Of a stretch of DNA of 64,000 nucleotides, positions 28,477-34,505 are shown in pieces. The notes beneath the pieces are model-generated. The model searched no databases. It was not told the DNA's origin and was given only the letters and a program-made list of their open reading frames with translations. Source of the stretch: Virgisporangium aurantiacum (GTDB lineage: Bacteria > Actinomycetota > Actinomycetes > Mycobacteriales > Micromonosporaceae). A program made the translations under genes and the position numbers. Numbering within the stretch: the stretch's first letter is position 1; each line of letters opens with the position of its first letter. Where the stretch lies: positions 1-64,000 of the forward strand of contig NZ_BOPG01000102.1 of assembly GCF_016863635.1 (NCBI RefSeq), given 5' to 3'.

Positions 28477-28498
28477 GTGCCGGTCCGCTACGCGGCAC
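28477..28498. terminator. Short hairpin between convergent genes
   Basis: GTGCCG (28477-28482) and CGGCAC (28493-28498) could form a 6-bp stem between the diguanylate cyclase stop and the opposing small membrane gene, overlapping the latter's last codons. It is weak but is the only candidate terminator in the 19-base gap. Confidence 0.35.
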
Positions 28499-28892
28499 GG
28501 ATGAGTCCGACGGCAAGGGCGACCAGCGCTGCCGCAATGAGTAGTGCCCCGCTACGGGTCAGCGTCGTGCCGGCCGAGCGGCTGCCGTCCCTGCCGACCG
28601 CCATGTGGACGAAGAAGCCACCCGACTGGGCCAGCACGCCGACGAGCAACATCACGCCGACCAGCCACTGCAGCCCATCGGAGAAGCCGGTGCGCGGCAG
28701 ATAGAGCAGGTACACCAGGGTCAGCACCAGGAGTACGCCGGCGTGCGCGTGACCGGCCCGGAAGAAGCGTTCCCGGGACGCGCCGAGCCGGTCCCGGTCG
28801 GTGGTGATGAAGCGCAGCAGCGCGTGTCCGCCGAATTCGACCGTGACCAACGACAGGATCGCGACGATCGGCAGGATGTCGGTGGGTTCCAT
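28488..28892 (-). CDS. Small four-helix membrane protein
   Basis: 134 residues with a GGGAAG SD. Four membrane segments are evident (ILPIVAILSLVTVEFGGHALL, AGVLLVLTLVYLLYL, LVGVMLLVGVLAQSGGFFVHM, GALLIAAALVALAVGLI). A cytoplasmic loop has FRAGHAHAGVL, with histidines next to a membrane segment that could bind metal. This pattern recurs in actinobacterial hypotheticals; no function is known to me. It is followed by a separate gene set on the same strand. Confidence 0.7.
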   Translation of the reverse strand: MEPTDILPIVAILSLVTVEFGGHALLRFITTDRDRLGASRERFFRAGHAHAGVLLVLTLVYLLYLPRTGFSDGLQWLVGVMLLVGVLAQSGGFFVHMAVGRDGSRSAGTTLTRSGALLIAAALVALAVGLIRAA

Positions 28893-28925: not shown

Positions 28926-29564
28926 TCATACGACGCCGCGGGCGAACTCCCGGCGCTGATAGCCGACGTGGCCGACGAGGGCCGCGAGGGCGAGCAGGAC
29001 GCCGAGGCCGGCGGCCCATGGCAGCGCGAGCGCGTCGGCGCCGCGGACGGCGAGGCAGCAGGCGATGCCGAGAATCAGTGAGTTGAGTGCGCCGACCATG
29101 CTGGCCGCGGTGTACAGCAGCTGCCAGAACGACGGCCGCATACCCATGCTGCGCACCGCGGCCGCGGCCTCGTCCACATCGTCGGCATCGTCGGCATCGT
29201 CGGCGAGATCGGCGAACCAGACCGAACCGGGCGGACACTGGCGCGCGTACCAGTGCCGGATCCGTTGGATGCGGGCGAGGTATCGCATGCTCTCCACACC
29301 GGTCTGGACCAGGCGCACGAAGGTGAACCAGCCCAGGATCAGCACGGCGGGCAGTACCGCCGCGGCGAACAGGATGAAGCGGTCGCTGTCGTCAGCCACG
29401 AAGCCGAGCGCGATCAGTCCACTGGAGACCGCGCCCAGGTAGATCGACGCGCGGCCGTTGGCCTCGCCGATGGTGCCGCCGCGTGCGGTCTGCAGAACGA
29501 AGTGCTCGGTGGTGAGGATGGTGAGCAGGCTGGCGTCCGGCCCGGGTCGCGGTGTGTCGGTCAT
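28926..29564 (-). CDS. Hypothetical integral membrane protein
   Basis: 212 residues from an ATG overlapping the NmrA stop (ATGA). Four membrane helices lie in two pairs (IYLGAVSSGLIALGFVA, ILFAAAVLPAVLILGWFTFV, then ALNSLILGIACCLAV, WAAGLGVLLALAALVGHVGY). Between them is a cytoplasmic part with a strongly acidic DADDADDADDVDEAA run encoded by 9-base repeats near 29178-29205. The N-terminus LTILTTEHFVLQTARGGTIGEANGRASIYLG is typical of a recurring actinobacterial hypothetical family. Coupling to the reductase gene suggests coexpression; no function can be named. Confidence 0.75.
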   Translation of the reverse strand: MTDTPRPGPDASLLTILTTEHFVLQTARGGTIGEANGRASIYLGAVSSGLIALGFVADDSDRFILFAAAVLPAVLILGWFTFVRLVQTGVESMRYLARIQRIRHWYARQCPPGSVWFADLADDADDADDVDEAAAAVRSMGMRPSFWQLLYTAASMVGALNSLILGIACCLAVRGADALALPWAAGLGVLLALAALVGHVGYQRREFARGVV

Positions 29565-30400
29565 TTCCGGGCGGCGAAGGCCCCGACGTGTGCGGTGGCC
29601 CATTGCCGGAAGGTGCGGGGCGGGCGACCGGTGATCTCCTCGACGGTGGGGCGAACGGTCGACTCGTCGAGTGTGCCGTCGACGTAGAAGCGGAAGAACG
29701 CGTCGACGTACTCGGCCGGCATGGCGGCGGTCAGTTCGGCTCGCGCTTCGTCGGGCGACAACGCCCGCAGGGTCAGGTTCCGGCCGAGCACCGCGCCGAG
29801 CATGGCGAGCCGATCGGCGGGCAGCAGGGATTCGGGTCCGGACAGGTGGTAGATCCTGCCTTCGTGTGCGGGGGTCAGCAGGGCCCGGACGGCGACGGCC
29901 GCGATGTCGTAGGGGTCGATGTTGGCGACCCGTACGGTGGCGAACGGTTCGCGGACCACGTCACCGTCGCGGAGTTCGGGTACCCAACGCAGGGTGTTGG
30001 ACATGAACGCGACGGGCCGCAGGAACGTCCACGGCAGACCGGATTCCCTGACCGCGGTCTCGGAGCGGGCCATGTAGCGGGAGATCGCGTTGTCCGGGTC
30101 GTTGTCACCGGCCGAGCCGCCGGAGAGCAGCACCACGCGCGCCGCGCCGGCCGCACGGATCCGGGCGAGTACACCCGGCATGTCCCGGAAGCCGGGCAGC
30201 AGGAACACCGCATCCACGCCGGCGAGGGCGGCGGCCAACGTCTCGGGCCGGTCCAGGTCGCCGGGAACGACCTCGACGCCGGGTCGTATCGACGACGTTG
30301 CTGCGGTGCGGCTGAGCGCGCGTACCGGCTCGTCGGCGTCGACGAGAGCGGCGGCGACTTCGGAGCCGACGTTTCCGTTGGCACCAGTGACAAGGATCAT
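29561..30400 (-). CDS. NmrA-like NAD(P)H-binding reductase
   Basis: 279 residues with a GGGAGAG SD. The N-terminal dinucleotide motif is MILVTGANGNVGSEVAAAL (GxxGxxG), then VEVVPGDLDRPETLAAALAGVDAVFLLP. The active-site Tyr region is replaced by ISRYMARSETAVRESGLPWTFLRP, as usual for atypical SDRs of the NmrA/QOR2 type. These act as redox sensors or reduce quinones. It heads a two-gene operon with the membrane protein. Confidence 0.88.
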   Translation of the reverse strand: MILVTGANGNVGSEVAAALVDADEPVRALSRTAATSSIRPGVEVVPGDLDRPETLAAALAGVDAVFLLPGFRDMPGVLARIRAAGAARVVLLSGGSAGDNDPDNAISRYMARSETAVRESGLPWTFLRPVAFMSNTLRWVPELRDGDVVREPFATVRVANIDPYDIAAVAVRALLTPAHEGRIYHLSGPESLLPADRLAMLGAVLGRNLTLRALSPDEARAELTAAMPAEYVDAFFRFYVDGTLDESTVRPTVEEITGRPPRTFRQWATAHVGAFAARK

Positions 30401-30508: not shown

Positions 30509-31123
30509 ATGCTGGGCGTGATCCGGATCCTCCTCGCCGAGGACATGTCGCTGCTCCGCGAGGCATTGATAGAGCTGCTCGGCCAGGAGGACGACCTCGA
30601 GGTCGTAGCACGGGTCGGGTCCGGCGCCGACATCGTGCGGCAGGCACTACTACACCGGCCCGACGTAGCCGTCATCGACATCGATCTGCCCGATCAGGAC
30701 GGCATCACCGCGACCGCCGCGCTCCGCGACCGGTTGCCCGGCTGCCGGGTCCTGATCCTTACCGCGCTGAGCGGTCCCGGCCAACTCCGCCGGGCACTGG
30801 CGGCCGGTGCGGCGGGTTTCCTCCCCAAAGACCTGCGGCCCGGAGACCTGGCCGACGCGATCCGCGCGGTCGCGGCGGGTGGCCAGGCCGTCGACCCCGC
30901 CCTCGCGCTGACCGCGCTCCGGACCCCGCCCAGCCCGCTCACCCAACGCGAGACCGAAGCACTGCGGCTCTCGGCCACCGGTGCCCAGCCCGCAGAGATC
31001 GCCGAGCGCCTCTTCATCGGCTACGGGACCGTCCGGAACTACCTCACCTCAGCGGTGACCAAGCTCGGTGCCCGCAACCGCATCGACGCCATCCGCATCG
31101 CCACCGAAGCCGGCTGGATCTGA
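30509..31123 (+). CDS. NarL/DesR-type response regulator
   Basis: 204 residues from ATG 30509; the GTG nine bases on is an alternative start. The receiver is RILLAEDMSLLREALIELL with acidic pocket Glu-Asp, and the phosphorylation Asp is in VAVIDIDLPDQDG (residue 57). Conserved Thr is in LILTALSG and Lys in GFLPKDL. The LuxR-type HTH is PLTQRETEALRLSATGAQPAEIAERLFIGYGTVRNYLTSAVTKLGARNRIDAI. Its gene converges on, and overlaps by 75 bases, the histidine kinase gene, an unusual arrangement for a pair that normally share an operon. Confidence 0.9.
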   Translation: MLGVIRILLAEDMSLLREALIELLGQEDDLEVVARVGSGADIVRQALLHRPDVAVIDIDLPDQDGITATAALRDRLPGCRVLILTALSGPGQLRRALAAGAAGFLPKDLRPGDLADAIRAVAAGGQAVDPALALTALRTPPSPLTQRETEALRLSATGAQPAEIAERLFIGYGTVRNYLTSAVTKLGARNRIDAIRIATEAGWI

Positions 31124-32878
31124 CCCGAACTCCGCGACCAACTCGAACCGACCGCCCGGTAGCGTTCCCGCCCGCAGACGTCCTCCCGCCCGTACCGCCA
31201 TGCTCGCCAGCCCCAGGCCCTCCTGCGGCTGCGGAACATCCGCGACCGCGACCCCGTCATTGGTGACCGTCAGCCGCACCAGGCCGCCTTCCTCGACGAT
31301 GTCGATCACACAGGTCCGTACCCTGCTGTGCCGCAGGACGTTGGTGACACTCTCCCGCAGCACGGCAGCCAGCGCGGTGTCGGCCTGCCGGGCGAGCGGG
31401 CCCGTCGACACCGTGATCTCGGCCGCTGCCCCGGCCGCTGCCAGCACCTCGCGAGCGGTGTCGATCTCCTGGGCCAGCTGTAGCCTGATCCGGCCGTCGG
31501 TGATCATGGCGAGCTCGCGGGCCGACCGCCCGACCAGTTCCCGCAGGGAAGCCAGCTCGGCGGCGGCCCGCCCGGGATCCCGGTCCAGCAACCGCAACGC
31601 CAGTTCCCCACGCAGCGCCACCGCCGAGAGGCTGAACCCGAGCACATCGTGCAGATCCCGGGCCATCCGGACCCGCTCCCGCGCGACCGCCTCGTCCGCC
31701 AGTTCGTACCGCGCCCGGTCCAGCACCACCACCAGTTCACCCAGTCGGGTCAGGCTGTAGACCAGGCCGCCGAGGATGAGGTCGGAAGCCAGGCTCATCG
31801 CGATCAGCGCGGGCGGAAGGACCGGCGGCAGCGTCCGGCCCAGCACGACGTGCAGGCCGAGCACCGACACGACGACCACCCACGAGGCGGGCGGCCGCAG
31901 TCGCAGCAGGCTCAGCCCGATGAAGAACCCCCACATCCCGTCCCATCCCCAGGCGGGCACCAGAAAGGAGCCCGGCCACACCAAGGGGAACGTCAGGACC
32001 GCGATTGCCACGAGCCGGTAGCGGAAATGCGGAACCAGATACAGCGTGACGATCGAGACCAGCACCGGCACGGCGACGAACAGCTGCACCACACTGACGG
32101 TCGCCACGTAGGCCGCTGCGGCCGTCGCCTGCATGAGCAGCACCCCGAGTAGCACGAACCGCGCGATCCGCGGCGACCCGAGTCCCGCCCCGTGCGCCGC
32201 CATGCCCGCCGTCCGATAGTTTGCCGCCGCCTCCCGGATCCGGGCCAGCGCCCGCCGGGCGAGGTCGACCGCCTCCCGGACCCCGCCGAGCCCCCCGGAC
32301 AGCCGCTCGGCGATGACCCGCAGATCCCCGCCCACGACATCGCGGAGTTCCCCGTCCAACCGCAGCCGCTCGCGCAGCGTCGCCAGCCGGGCCAGCTCGC
32401 CCCGCGCCGTGGTGAGATCGCGGACCATCCCCGCCAGCGTGTGGAGGCTCAAGATGATCAACCCGTCGTTGACGGTCGCGGTCATCCGCCACAGCACGTC
32501 CGCCGCGGAATCTCCCGCCAGCAACCCACCGGCCAGGACAGCCCCGAGGAGAACAGCGAACAATGCGGCCGCCGTCCGACCCCGGAAGGCCACCAGGACC
32601 GCGACGGCCACCGTCCACGGCAGCCAGTCCCAGCCCGTACCGACCACCGCGAACGGCAGAGCCGCCAACCCCACGATGAGCGCCACCAGCCCGTACCGCA
32701 CCCGTCCCGGCCACGACCGCCAGAGCAGGGCGACGAGCGGCGGGTAGGAGACCATGGCAAGCAGCAGCGCGCCCGCCCCCCACCCATGCGCGATCCCGCT
32801 CAGCAGCCGGACGACGACGATCAGCCCCAGCGCGATCCACATCATCGCCCGCGCCACCCGCGGTTGCATCCCTTCCAC
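31049..32878 (-). CDS. Sensor histidine kinase with two HisKA_3-like motifs, the first degenerate
   Basis: 609 residues from a GTG with no SD. Membrane segments 1-4 (to about residue 150) lead to a coiled region and a HisKA_3-like motif, LRLDGELRDVVGGDL, where the phosphorylatable His is Arg (residue 179). No ATPase domain follows; instead a second membrane block runs from about 238 to 375. Then comes a normal HisKA_3 motif, RMARDLHDVLGFSLS (His410), and a HATPase with N-box LRESVTNVLRHS and VTNDGVA. The gene looks like an internal duplication of a DesK-like kinase whose first copy lost catalysis. It probably phosphorylates the convergent regulator. Confidence 0.88.
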   Translation of the reverse strand: MEGMQPRVARAMMWIALGLIVVVRLLSGIAHGWGAGALLLAMVSYPPLVALLWRSWPGRVRYGLVALIVGLAALPFAVVGTGWDWLPWTVAVAVLVAFRGRTAAALFAVLLGAVLAGGLLAGDSAADVLWRMTATVNDGLIILSLHTLAGMVRDLTTARGELARLATLRERLRLDGELRDVVGGDLRVIAERLSGGLGGVREAVDLARRALARIREAAANYRTAGMAAHGAGLGSPRIARFVLLGVLLMQATAAAAYVATVSVVQLFVAVPVLVSIVTLYLVPHFRYRLVAIAVLTFPLVWPGSFLVPAWGWDGMWGFFIGLSLLRLRPPASWVVVVSVLGLHVVLGRTLPPVLPPALIAMSLASDLILGGLVYSLTRLGELVVVLDRARYELADEAVARERVRMARDLHDVLGFSLSAVALRGELALRLLDRDPGRAAAELASLRELVGRSARELAMITDGRIRLQLAQEIDTAREVLAAAGAAAEITVSTGPLARQADTALAAVLRESVTNVLRHSRVRTCVIDIVEEGGLVRLTVTNDGVAVADVPQPQEGLGLASMAVRAGGRLRAGTLPGGRFELVAEFGSDPAGFGGDADGVDAVAGTELGHR

Positions 32879-33055: not shown

Positions 33056-33215
33056 GTGTCTGACAAGTCGGAGCGACGAGCAGCGCGCTCGGTAATCGCG
33101 GAGTACCACGAAGTCGAGTTGGGAAACCTGCTCGCCCGCGTCGCAGAGGCCGTCGATCGCTACCGCGAAGGTGCGCTCGACGCCTTCGACGTCGATCTCG
33201 TGGCGAGGAGATATG
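33056..33215 (+). pseudogene. 5' remnant of a broken hypothetical gene
   Basis: A GTG at 33056 opens a convincing protein start (SVIAEYHEVELGNLLARVAEAVDRYREGALDAFDVD) resembling a recurring actinobacterial hypothetical of about 100 residues. The usual continuation, a helix ending in a Trp/Lys/Phe-rich stretch, is missing. After about 33205 the frame runs into antisense MFS sequence. It is probably a fragment left at a rearrangement junction. 32879-33055 shows no gene. Confidence 0.45.
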
Positions 33216-34296
33216 TCGACGTCGCCGCCAGGGCGAGCACCACCAGGCAGGGTGCCAGGACGTCGGCGCCGAACCGGCCGATGAGGACCCCGATCACCGC
33301 CGGGATCGTGGCGGCACCCGCCGATCCGGCCGCCACCTGGAATCCGATCACCCGGTCGGCGTGGTGCGCGCCGACGCGGTCCTTCGTGGTGAGGGTCAGC
33401 AACGGGAACACCGGTGCCGCCGCCAGCGCCAGCATGAGGATCCCGGCCGCCGCGGCCCGCCCCGGTAGGAACAGGAGGGCGGCGCCGGCGGTGAGGCCAC
33501 CGAAGCAGGCCAGCAGCATCGGACGCGCACCGGTGCGGTCGGCGATCGGGCCGAGCGCTACGCGTCCCATGACGAGCGTCAGCCAGTAGGCGGACACCAG
33601 CAGCGCGGCGGACGCGGGCCGTAGCCCCCGGGCGCCGGTCAGGTAGGTGTACGCCCAGAGCGAGGCGCTCGCCTCCAACCCGGTGTACACCGCGAACAGC
33701 GTCACCCCGGGCCAGGCCCCGCGCACCGGGAACCATCCGTCACTCGCGCGCCGCGCCGCCGGGATCGGTGCGACCCATGACCGCGCTGTCACCATGAACG
33801 CCAGGGCGAGCACGCCCTGGATCGCGGCGACGGCGCCGAACGCCCACCGCCACGACAGGCCCAGACCGGCTGTACCGCTGACGATGAGCGGCCCGCACGC
33901 GGCACCCACCCCGTAGCACGCGTGCAACCAGGTGATCCGCCGCGCGCTGAACCGGCGGGCGACGTGCGCGTTGAGTCCCGCGTCGATGGCGCCCGATCCG
34001 ACGGCGAACAGGCACGACGCGGCCACGACCACCCAGAACGCGGCGGCCAGGCTCTGGATGAACAGGGCGGTTGCGGCCAGCGCCGTGCTGACCGTGAGCA
34101 GCCAACCGATACCGATGCGGCCGAGCACGAACCCGGTCGCCGAACTCGACAGCATCGAGCAGACGACCGCGAACGGCAGCATCACCCCGAGCGCGCCGAT
34201 CGGCACACCGAAGTCGAGCCGCATCGACGGCCAGGCAACGCCGAGCACGCCGTCGGGAAGAGCGATTGCAAAGAAGGCGAGAAACGCGACAAGCAT
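33160..34296 (-). CDS. MFS transporter
   Basis: 378 residues from ATG 34296, chosen for GAAGG five bases upstream; in-frame starts at 34317 and 34335 exist. Twelve hydrophobic helices are visible, with LPDGVLGVAWPSMRLDFGVP in helix 1-2, ACYGVGAACGPL in helix 5 and GRVALGPIADRTGARP as the loop 8-9 motif, typical of FucP/YbjJ-like members. The last residues (about 18, TRSTSKASSAPSR) are read from the antisense of the broken gene at 33056-33215, so the natural C-terminus has been replaced. The substrate could be a sugar or a small drug. Confidence 0.85.
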   Translation of the reverse strand: MLVAFLAFFAIALPDGVLGVAWPSMRLDFGVPIGALGVMLPFAVVCSMLSSSATGFVLGRIGIGWLLTVSTALAATALFIQSLAAAFWVVVAASCLFAVGSGAIDAGLNAHVARRFSARRITWLHACYGVGAACGPLIVSGTAGLGLSWRWAFGAVAAIQGVLALAFMVTARSWVAPIPAARRASDGWFPVRGAWPGVTLFAVYTGLEASASLWAYTYLTGARGLRPASAALLVSAYWLTLVMGRVALGPIADRTGARPMLLACFGGLTAGAALLFLPGRAAAAGILMLALAAAPVFPLLTLTTKDRVGAHHADRVIGFQVAAGSAGAATIPAVIGVLIGRFGADVLAPCLVVLALAATSTYLLATRSTSKASSAPSR

Positions 34297-34505
34297 GGAG
34301 ACCTTCGAGGGCAGCATCGCGCGGCGACACCACACCGTGGACCCCGCCCGGTAGGCGAAGCTCCAAGTTCAGAGGCGCGGCACGCGCGACTGATCGGAAA
34401 GGGGACCGGTCAGCGCGTGCCCGGCTGCCCGGGTCGCACCTCACATCCCCTGCTGCTCCTCGACACGGACCCATCCTAGCGGCGCTGGCGGGTACGCTCC
34501 CGGCT

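Follow-up and report, generated by a model that had tools for sequence, protein, structure and literature searches.

A DesK-like histidine kinase from Virgisporangium aurantiacum fused to a degenerate and conserved copy of its own sensor and DHp unit

Histidine kinases are held to act as homodimers, a way of working that makes the roles of the single protomers difficult to separate. Pseudo-histidine kinases and heterodimers are already known. The best solved relatives of the system described here are the thermosensor kinase DesK and its regulator DesR from Bacillus subtilis (E 2.7e-22 and 6.4e-41, respectively). In PMC5231405, DesK acts as a dimer, its Gln193 at position +5 from the phospho-acceptor His contacts the receiver phosphorylation site, and its Leu200 at position +12 is inserted into a pocket of DesR. 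For the FasB-FasC-FasA system of Streptococcus, PMC12675982 describes the FasC kinase domain as dispensable, and the authors propose a pseudokinase. The paralogous Corynebacterium kinases ChrS and HrrS form a heterodimer; according to PMC9491836, the two-hybrid assay detected this interaction between the intact kinases but no heterodimer with a truncated ChrS pseudokinase.

Here we describe a kinase encoded in a 64,000-nucleotide stretch of V. aurantiacum DNA (contig NZ_BOPG01000102.1, positions 1 to 64,000; hereafter the window). Like DesK, the window kinase links a multi-TM block to a DHp via a signalling helix and has the docking Leu at +12 in its active half; unlike DesK, which has one unit and is dimeric, it carries two units per chain, one of them dead. 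Like FasB-FasC, it has two six-TM kinase-like units that would act jointly with one regulator. However, FasB and FasC are two separate proteins and the window kinase is one chain, which sets it apart from a FasBC-type pair, although split relatives of it exist (L003, L005 and L009). Moreover, H246 of FasC is needed (PMC12675982), whereas the ATPase-less copy of the window kinase has lost its His too. The ChrS pseudokinase with HrrS, and DivL, are cases of a catalytically dead kinase influencing an active one, according to PMC9491836, and such an influence is predicted for the window kinase. The ChrS pseudokinase arose from a frameshift in laboratory evolution and DivL is a separate protein; neither is fused to an active kinase. 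Monomeric histidine kinases exist as well, such as EL346. Qin et al. in 2000 reportedly obtained an EnvZ-derived monomeric kinase with two DHp copies and one ATPase per chain; if so, its two DHps with one catalytic domain follow the logic proposed here for the window kinase. The EnvZ-derived kinase is engineered and soluble with DHps from one sequence, whereas the window kinase is natural and has two membrane blocks and a His-less first DHp. We found no description in the open-licence literature of a pseudokinase unit with its own sensor fused to its own kinase in several lineages.

Layout and homology of the two copies

The gene of the fused pseudokinase-kinase, of the DesK-like (HisKA_3) type, lies at 31049..32878 on the minus strand, has a GTG start and encodes 609 aa. 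The original prediction had placed a kinase here without naming the strand, and the open reading frame is real; the Arg at residue 179, His410 and the GELRDVVGGDL motif to which it had drawn attention are all present. The chain begins with a membrane block of about six helices (residues 6-157, 32408..32863, minus strand like all parts of the gene), assigned from the helices of an AF2 model and from its profile match to the second block. A degenerate DHp follows (residues 158-224, 32207..32407), with the Arg179 codon (32342..32344) at the position of the phospho-acceptor His. A short linker and the second membrane block (residues 225-388, 31715..32206) lead to the active DHp (residues 389-463, 31490..31714), which contains the codon of the phospho-acceptor His410 (31649..31651), and to the HATPase/CA domain (residues 464-596, 31091..31489).

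At default Pfam thresholds, HisKA_3 at residues 401-456 was the sole match above threshold in the kinase (43.3 bits, cut-off 24), and two HisKA_3 stretches appeared once the threshold was made permissive. HATPase_c at residues 501-579 scored 21.4 bits, under its cut-off of 26.4, and the HATPase/CA identity is backed by the CA domain of DesK, which aligned with phmmer and matched by fold (Foldseek E 4e-12). With a DHp bearing His410, a HATPase/CA domain and an adjoining receiver-LuxR regulator, the second half is a HisKA_3/DesK-type kinase. Domain searches gave no ATPase match ahead of the second half, as had been foreseen, and the first half, with R179 and no ATPase, is a putative pseudo-histidine kinase. 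No receiver or HPt domain was found among the Pfam matches of the chain, which was therefore not classed as a hybrid kinase or phosphorelay protein.

As judged from sequence comparison, the duplication covers the entire sensor and DHp unit, membrane block included, beyond a mere motif. An HMM built from 51 active DHps, with the window protein left out, scored 20.4 bits for the first half and 84.7 bits for the second, and composition-matched shuffles of residues 150-240 (2000 made, 1997 reported) reached a maximum of 12.0 bits. Residues 1-232 were 31% identical to the second part by blastp (E 1.6e-4). The profiles of the first and second membrane blocks aligned over their full length (167 columns, P 7e-28), whereas the control, two segments of an unrelated neighbouring MFS protein, gave P 0.1 and 0.25. 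It had been considered that orthologues might expose the first motif as a chance resemblance. They did not, and chance is ruled out by the scores of 20.4 versus 12.0 bits, the P value for the membrane blocks and the recurrence of the architecture in 26 proteins. Sequencing error is ruled out by the same architecture with open frames in other genomes.

The copies were compared in 27 fused proteins that lack an ATPase in the first unit (L001, L002, L006-L008, L010, L011, L013, L014, L016, L017, L100-L108, L120, L122, L128 and L132-L135), leaving out L004, L114, L116 and L124, in which the first ATPase remains. The site residue of the first copies is Arg in 15, Asn in seven, Ser and Asp in one each, and His in only three (L105, L128 and L108, with the anchor of L108 placed by hand), whereas the second copies have His in 27/27. 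First copies keep R-8 (27/27), G+4 (24/27), L-1 and L+7 (22/27 each) and E-9 (21/27). They have D-2 in 3/27, D+1 in 2/27, and L+12 and K+13 in 0/27; the second copies have D-2 and D+1 in 27/27, and L+12 and K+13 in 25/27. With the catalytic residues and L+12, the position of DesK Leu200, gone, the first copy is without catalysis and without the main docking residue, whereas its hairpin positions are retained. In all 27 proteins, the losses fall on the N-terminal copy. First copies with a His and no ATPase occur in L105, L108, L128 and the first gene of the split L009, and these could receive phosphate from the ATPase of the partner half.

Position +5, Gln193 in DesK, is Phe in the window kinase, so the DesK-type phosphatase Gln, which is not required for membership among these kinases, is missing. 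This Gln is nearly absent from the family (1/27 second copies, 0/17 single kinases), where the position is mostly L, F or Y, and the dephosphorylation of the regulator may differ from that in DesK.

An AF2 model of residues 1-244, computed from an alignment of 18 single-kinase fragments, had a mean pLDDT of 77 and about six membrane helices. The long helix 125-194, which holds the Arg179 region, forms a hairpin with helix 199-230 (block pLDDT mostly 75-89). The full-length model (pLDDT 66, pTM 0.39), built on an alignment with next to no coverage of the first half, was good in the second half, whose best Foldseek match to crystal structures of DesK had E 4e-12, and poor in the first, with block pLDDT of 35-53 around residues 131-180; its weakness there allows no reading of how the two DHps pack. 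No histidine kinase was among the PDB matches of the first-half model by Foldseek (best E 0.52), and no kinase was among its VIA-align rows against the PDB, mostly helical bundles, repeat and designed proteins; these rows span mainly residues 25-154, so that the absent kinase match does not speak against a DHp fold. The predicted fold of the degenerate DHp is thus backed by the AF2 hairpin and by DHp homology, yet without a fold match to any solved DHp. Of the structure predictions that had been suggested, the model of residues 1-244 supplied the helical hairpin, and the first half of the full-length model was too low in confidence.

Relatives, origin and constraint

The search for the two-motif architecture proposed along with the original prediction was fruitful, yielding 26 additional proteins with this architecture, drawn from four family-level groups of actinobacteria. 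As the queries were themselves fused proteins, the counts that follow are biased frequencies, and those inside the family come from protein queries only. With the window protein as query, 14 of 200 family genomes matched at E ≤ 1e-40, own genome included, comprising ten with fused proteins, one with a split pair and three with single kinases. A second query matched in 7 of 121 family genomes, a set overlapping with the 200, and four of these added new fused proteins. A profile of 12 fused proteins matched 139 of 394 class genomes at E ≤ 1e-50; among the 30 loci listed, one repeats L002, and the remaining 29 include 12 fused proteins without and three with a first ATPase. In a phylum-wide sample, 4 of 246 genomes matched at E ≤ 1e-75, own included, all in one class. 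The two other genomes of the genus were without a match at E ≤ 1e-60, and the closest relative by tree, L103, comes from another family. The paralogues in the own genome are L002, which is fused, L004, fused with an eroded ATPase, and the split L003 and L005. None of 80 named related loci encoded a clearly fused protein carrying two DHps; L037 and L090 gave weak second matches of 7-8 bits.

The fused architecture apparently stems from tandem double kinases and coupled gene pairs. In L114 and L116, which are fused double kinases, each unit has its His and its ATPase. Half-decayed fusions are L124, with N at the site and a 101-bit ATPase, and L004, where the site is Q and the ATPase a remnant of 47 bits. 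Among the coupled gene pairs, the first member is dead in L003 (A) and L005 (R), and in the L009 pair the first member keeps its His and is without an ATPase. These double kinases, coupled pairs and half-decayed fusions are apparent candidate intermediates, and the graded series from double kinase through coupled pairs and half-decayed fusions to the His-less fusion would show how a bacterial pseudokinase emerges.

In a tree of 87 sensor-DHp units, of which 26 of 84 inner branches are open and in which the columns of the site itself were included, the first copies are scattered over several groups, some beside their own second copies. The two copies of L009 are sisters, as are those of L114, and the copies of L105 and L116 lie in one small unresolved group. 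The hypothesis that the 27 first copies share one origin was rejected (p-AU 8.9e-5, 98 log-likelihood units worse) in a test of two trees under one tree model, with a quick tree and long branches present. Parsimony on the 87-unit tree required at least five changes between His and not-His, the E at the site of L117_s1 counting as not-His, and at least six changes for the loss of the ATPase; these minima are rough because of the included site columns and the open inner branches. The architecture seems to have arisen repeatedly via tandem duplication.

The dN/dS values (NG86, 11 pairs) were 0.20-0.61 for the degenerate DHp, 0.12-0.41 for the active DHp, 0.34-0.65 for the ATPase, 0.17-0.76 for the first membrane block and 0.22-0.98 for the second. 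The degenerate DHp evolves somewhat faster than the active DHp in most of the pairs, and these values indicate that it is under constraint rather than drifting freely. We tentatively suggest, with a little less than even confidence, that such proteins are a natural class which has evolved repeatedly, the second protomer of the usual homodimer being replaced by an N-terminal pseudokinase unit of sensor and degenerate DHp, with two different sensors feeding one His and one ATPase. If so, they would be the two-component counterpart of the eukaryotic pseudokinase-kinase pairs.

Proposed pairing of the two copies and its alternatives

The idea of a duplicated and inactivated half, a fused pseudo-kinase, is borne out by the predicted hairpin, by homology and by its conservation across further lineages. 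Of the two roles suggested for it, that of a built-in sensor would be possible and that of a dimer partner is the reading we favour, with the pairing itself a matter of inference. The duplication of the sensor block, the loss of the docking surface, the tail-to-tail DesR-like regulator and the recurrence elsewhere were absent from the original prediction. The first copy, dead yet conserved, probably acts as the working copy's built-in partner. In an ancestor, a DesK-like kinase gene would have undergone tandem duplication and then fusion, and the N-terminal copy would have shed its ATPase domain, phospho-acceptor His and regulator-docking surface while retaining the membrane sensor, signalling helix and DHp hairpin. 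As helix 2 of a DHp returns towards the membrane, the loss of the ATPase would permit re-entry into the membrane via a short linker. The degenerate DHp (158-224) and the active DHp (389-463) of one chain could then form a four-helix bundle, which would make the two membrane blocks a built-in pair of sensors. The signalling helices would rotate in response to a signal from the membrane or from a ligand, the single HATPase would phosphorylate the single His410 inside its own half, since with one His and one ATPase phosphorylation has to stay in that half as long as no second chain takes part, and the DesR-like regulator would dock on the active side only.

This single-chain, asymmetric pseudo-dimer, with one catalytic half serving two sensors, we consider evenly poised between right and wrong. 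The homologous units in matching order, the one-sided losses, the intermediates and the constraint on the first copies speak for it at the level of sequence, and FasB-FasC and ChrS/HrrS may serve as precedents, since in each a kinase is paired with a protein that has a broken kinase domain or one it can do without. In the alignment, the degenerate hairpin lacks about 11 residues relative to the active one, an imperfect fit for a hetero-bundle that counts against the pairing. The somewhat faster evolution of the degenerate DHp in most pairs, the lack of a histidine kinase among the Foldseek matches of the first-half model and the failure of the truncated ChrS pseudokinase to heterodimerise also weigh against it. 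The shortened hairpin would fit itself in a symmetric pair, and the main alternative, which we think rather unlikely, is that two chains form a homodimer in which active DHp meets active DHp and degenerate DHp meets degenerate DHp, the first half being an added sensor or locking module. Both DHp copies keep their structural positions and could each self-pair, and DesK, the closest solved relative, is dimeric. By itself, however, such a homodimer leaves unexplained why catalytic and docking residues are lost from the first copy only across lineages, and it leaves the link to gene pairs unexplained.

Pairing of the first half mainly with other kinases of the cell, as a cross-talk hub or decoy, appears improbable. 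The own genome does hold the paralogues L002, L003, L004 and L005, and a heterodimer of paralogous kinases is reported in PMC9491836, but covalent fusion should favour the own second half through local concentration, and most systems have their own related regulator adjoining. That the first half is a functionless, decaying relic seems very improbable to us: the ATPase and catalytic residues are gone and the degenerate DHp is somewhat less constrained than the active one in most pairs, yet frame and structural positions are retained across family-level groups, its dN/dS stays within the range given above, and the branch lengths of first copies resemble those of second copies in the N-type group of the tree. 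We give just as little credence to an Arg-type first copy that serves as a scaffold or sink, docking the regulator but not phosphorylating it; the Arg could conceivably touch the acidic receiver site, whereas the docking Leu is missing from every first copy and the site residue varies among R, N, S, D and H. Were the single-chain pairing true, a natural one-chain kinase with a dead protomer would allow asymmetric signalling, phosphorylation inside a single half and the sharing of one output by two sensors to be tested directly.

The adjoining regulator and the neighbouring genes

The cognate, DesR-like response regulator (Response_reg and GerE domains; 30509..31123, plus strand) is convergent with the kinase gene, and the two overlap tail to tail in antisense by 75 bp including stops (31049..31123). 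A related regulator, 52-73% identical, was found at 44 of 50 other loci, often convergent and overlapping, and one 73% identical to that of the window adjoins the closest homologue, L103. The longer stretch L136, which surrounds the L103 kinase, has four genes clustered as in the window, but all on one strand: those of the kinase (43% identical), the regulator (73%), an NmrA-like protein (63%) and a small membrane protein (79%). In the window, the NmrA-like NAD(P)-binding protein is encoded at 29561..30400 and the small membrane protein at 28488..28892, both on the minus strand. For the output under control of the system, these two conserved neighbours are the likeliest candidates. The small membrane protein, which has no Pfam or NCBIfam match, is more conserved in the cluster of the other family (79% over 114 aa) than the kinase itself. 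The MFS gene upstream (33160-34335) has no homologue in L136, and a conserved role for it is unsupported. Large frames beside the kinases L008, L010 and L014 hold sequence reminiscent of DJ-1/PfpI-type proteins.

The assembly of the window measures 14.1 Mb with an estimated contamination of 9.05%; together with the closest kinase relative lying in another family, this makes horizontal transfer or a foreign contig possible. The 3' overlap of convergent kinase and regulator genes recurs, with 69 nt without stops in L001, L101 and L133-L135, 93 nt in L002, L014 and L100, and 108 nt in L006, L011, L013, L016 and L017, so that the tail of the kinase gene is the antisense of the DNA-binding end of the regulator.
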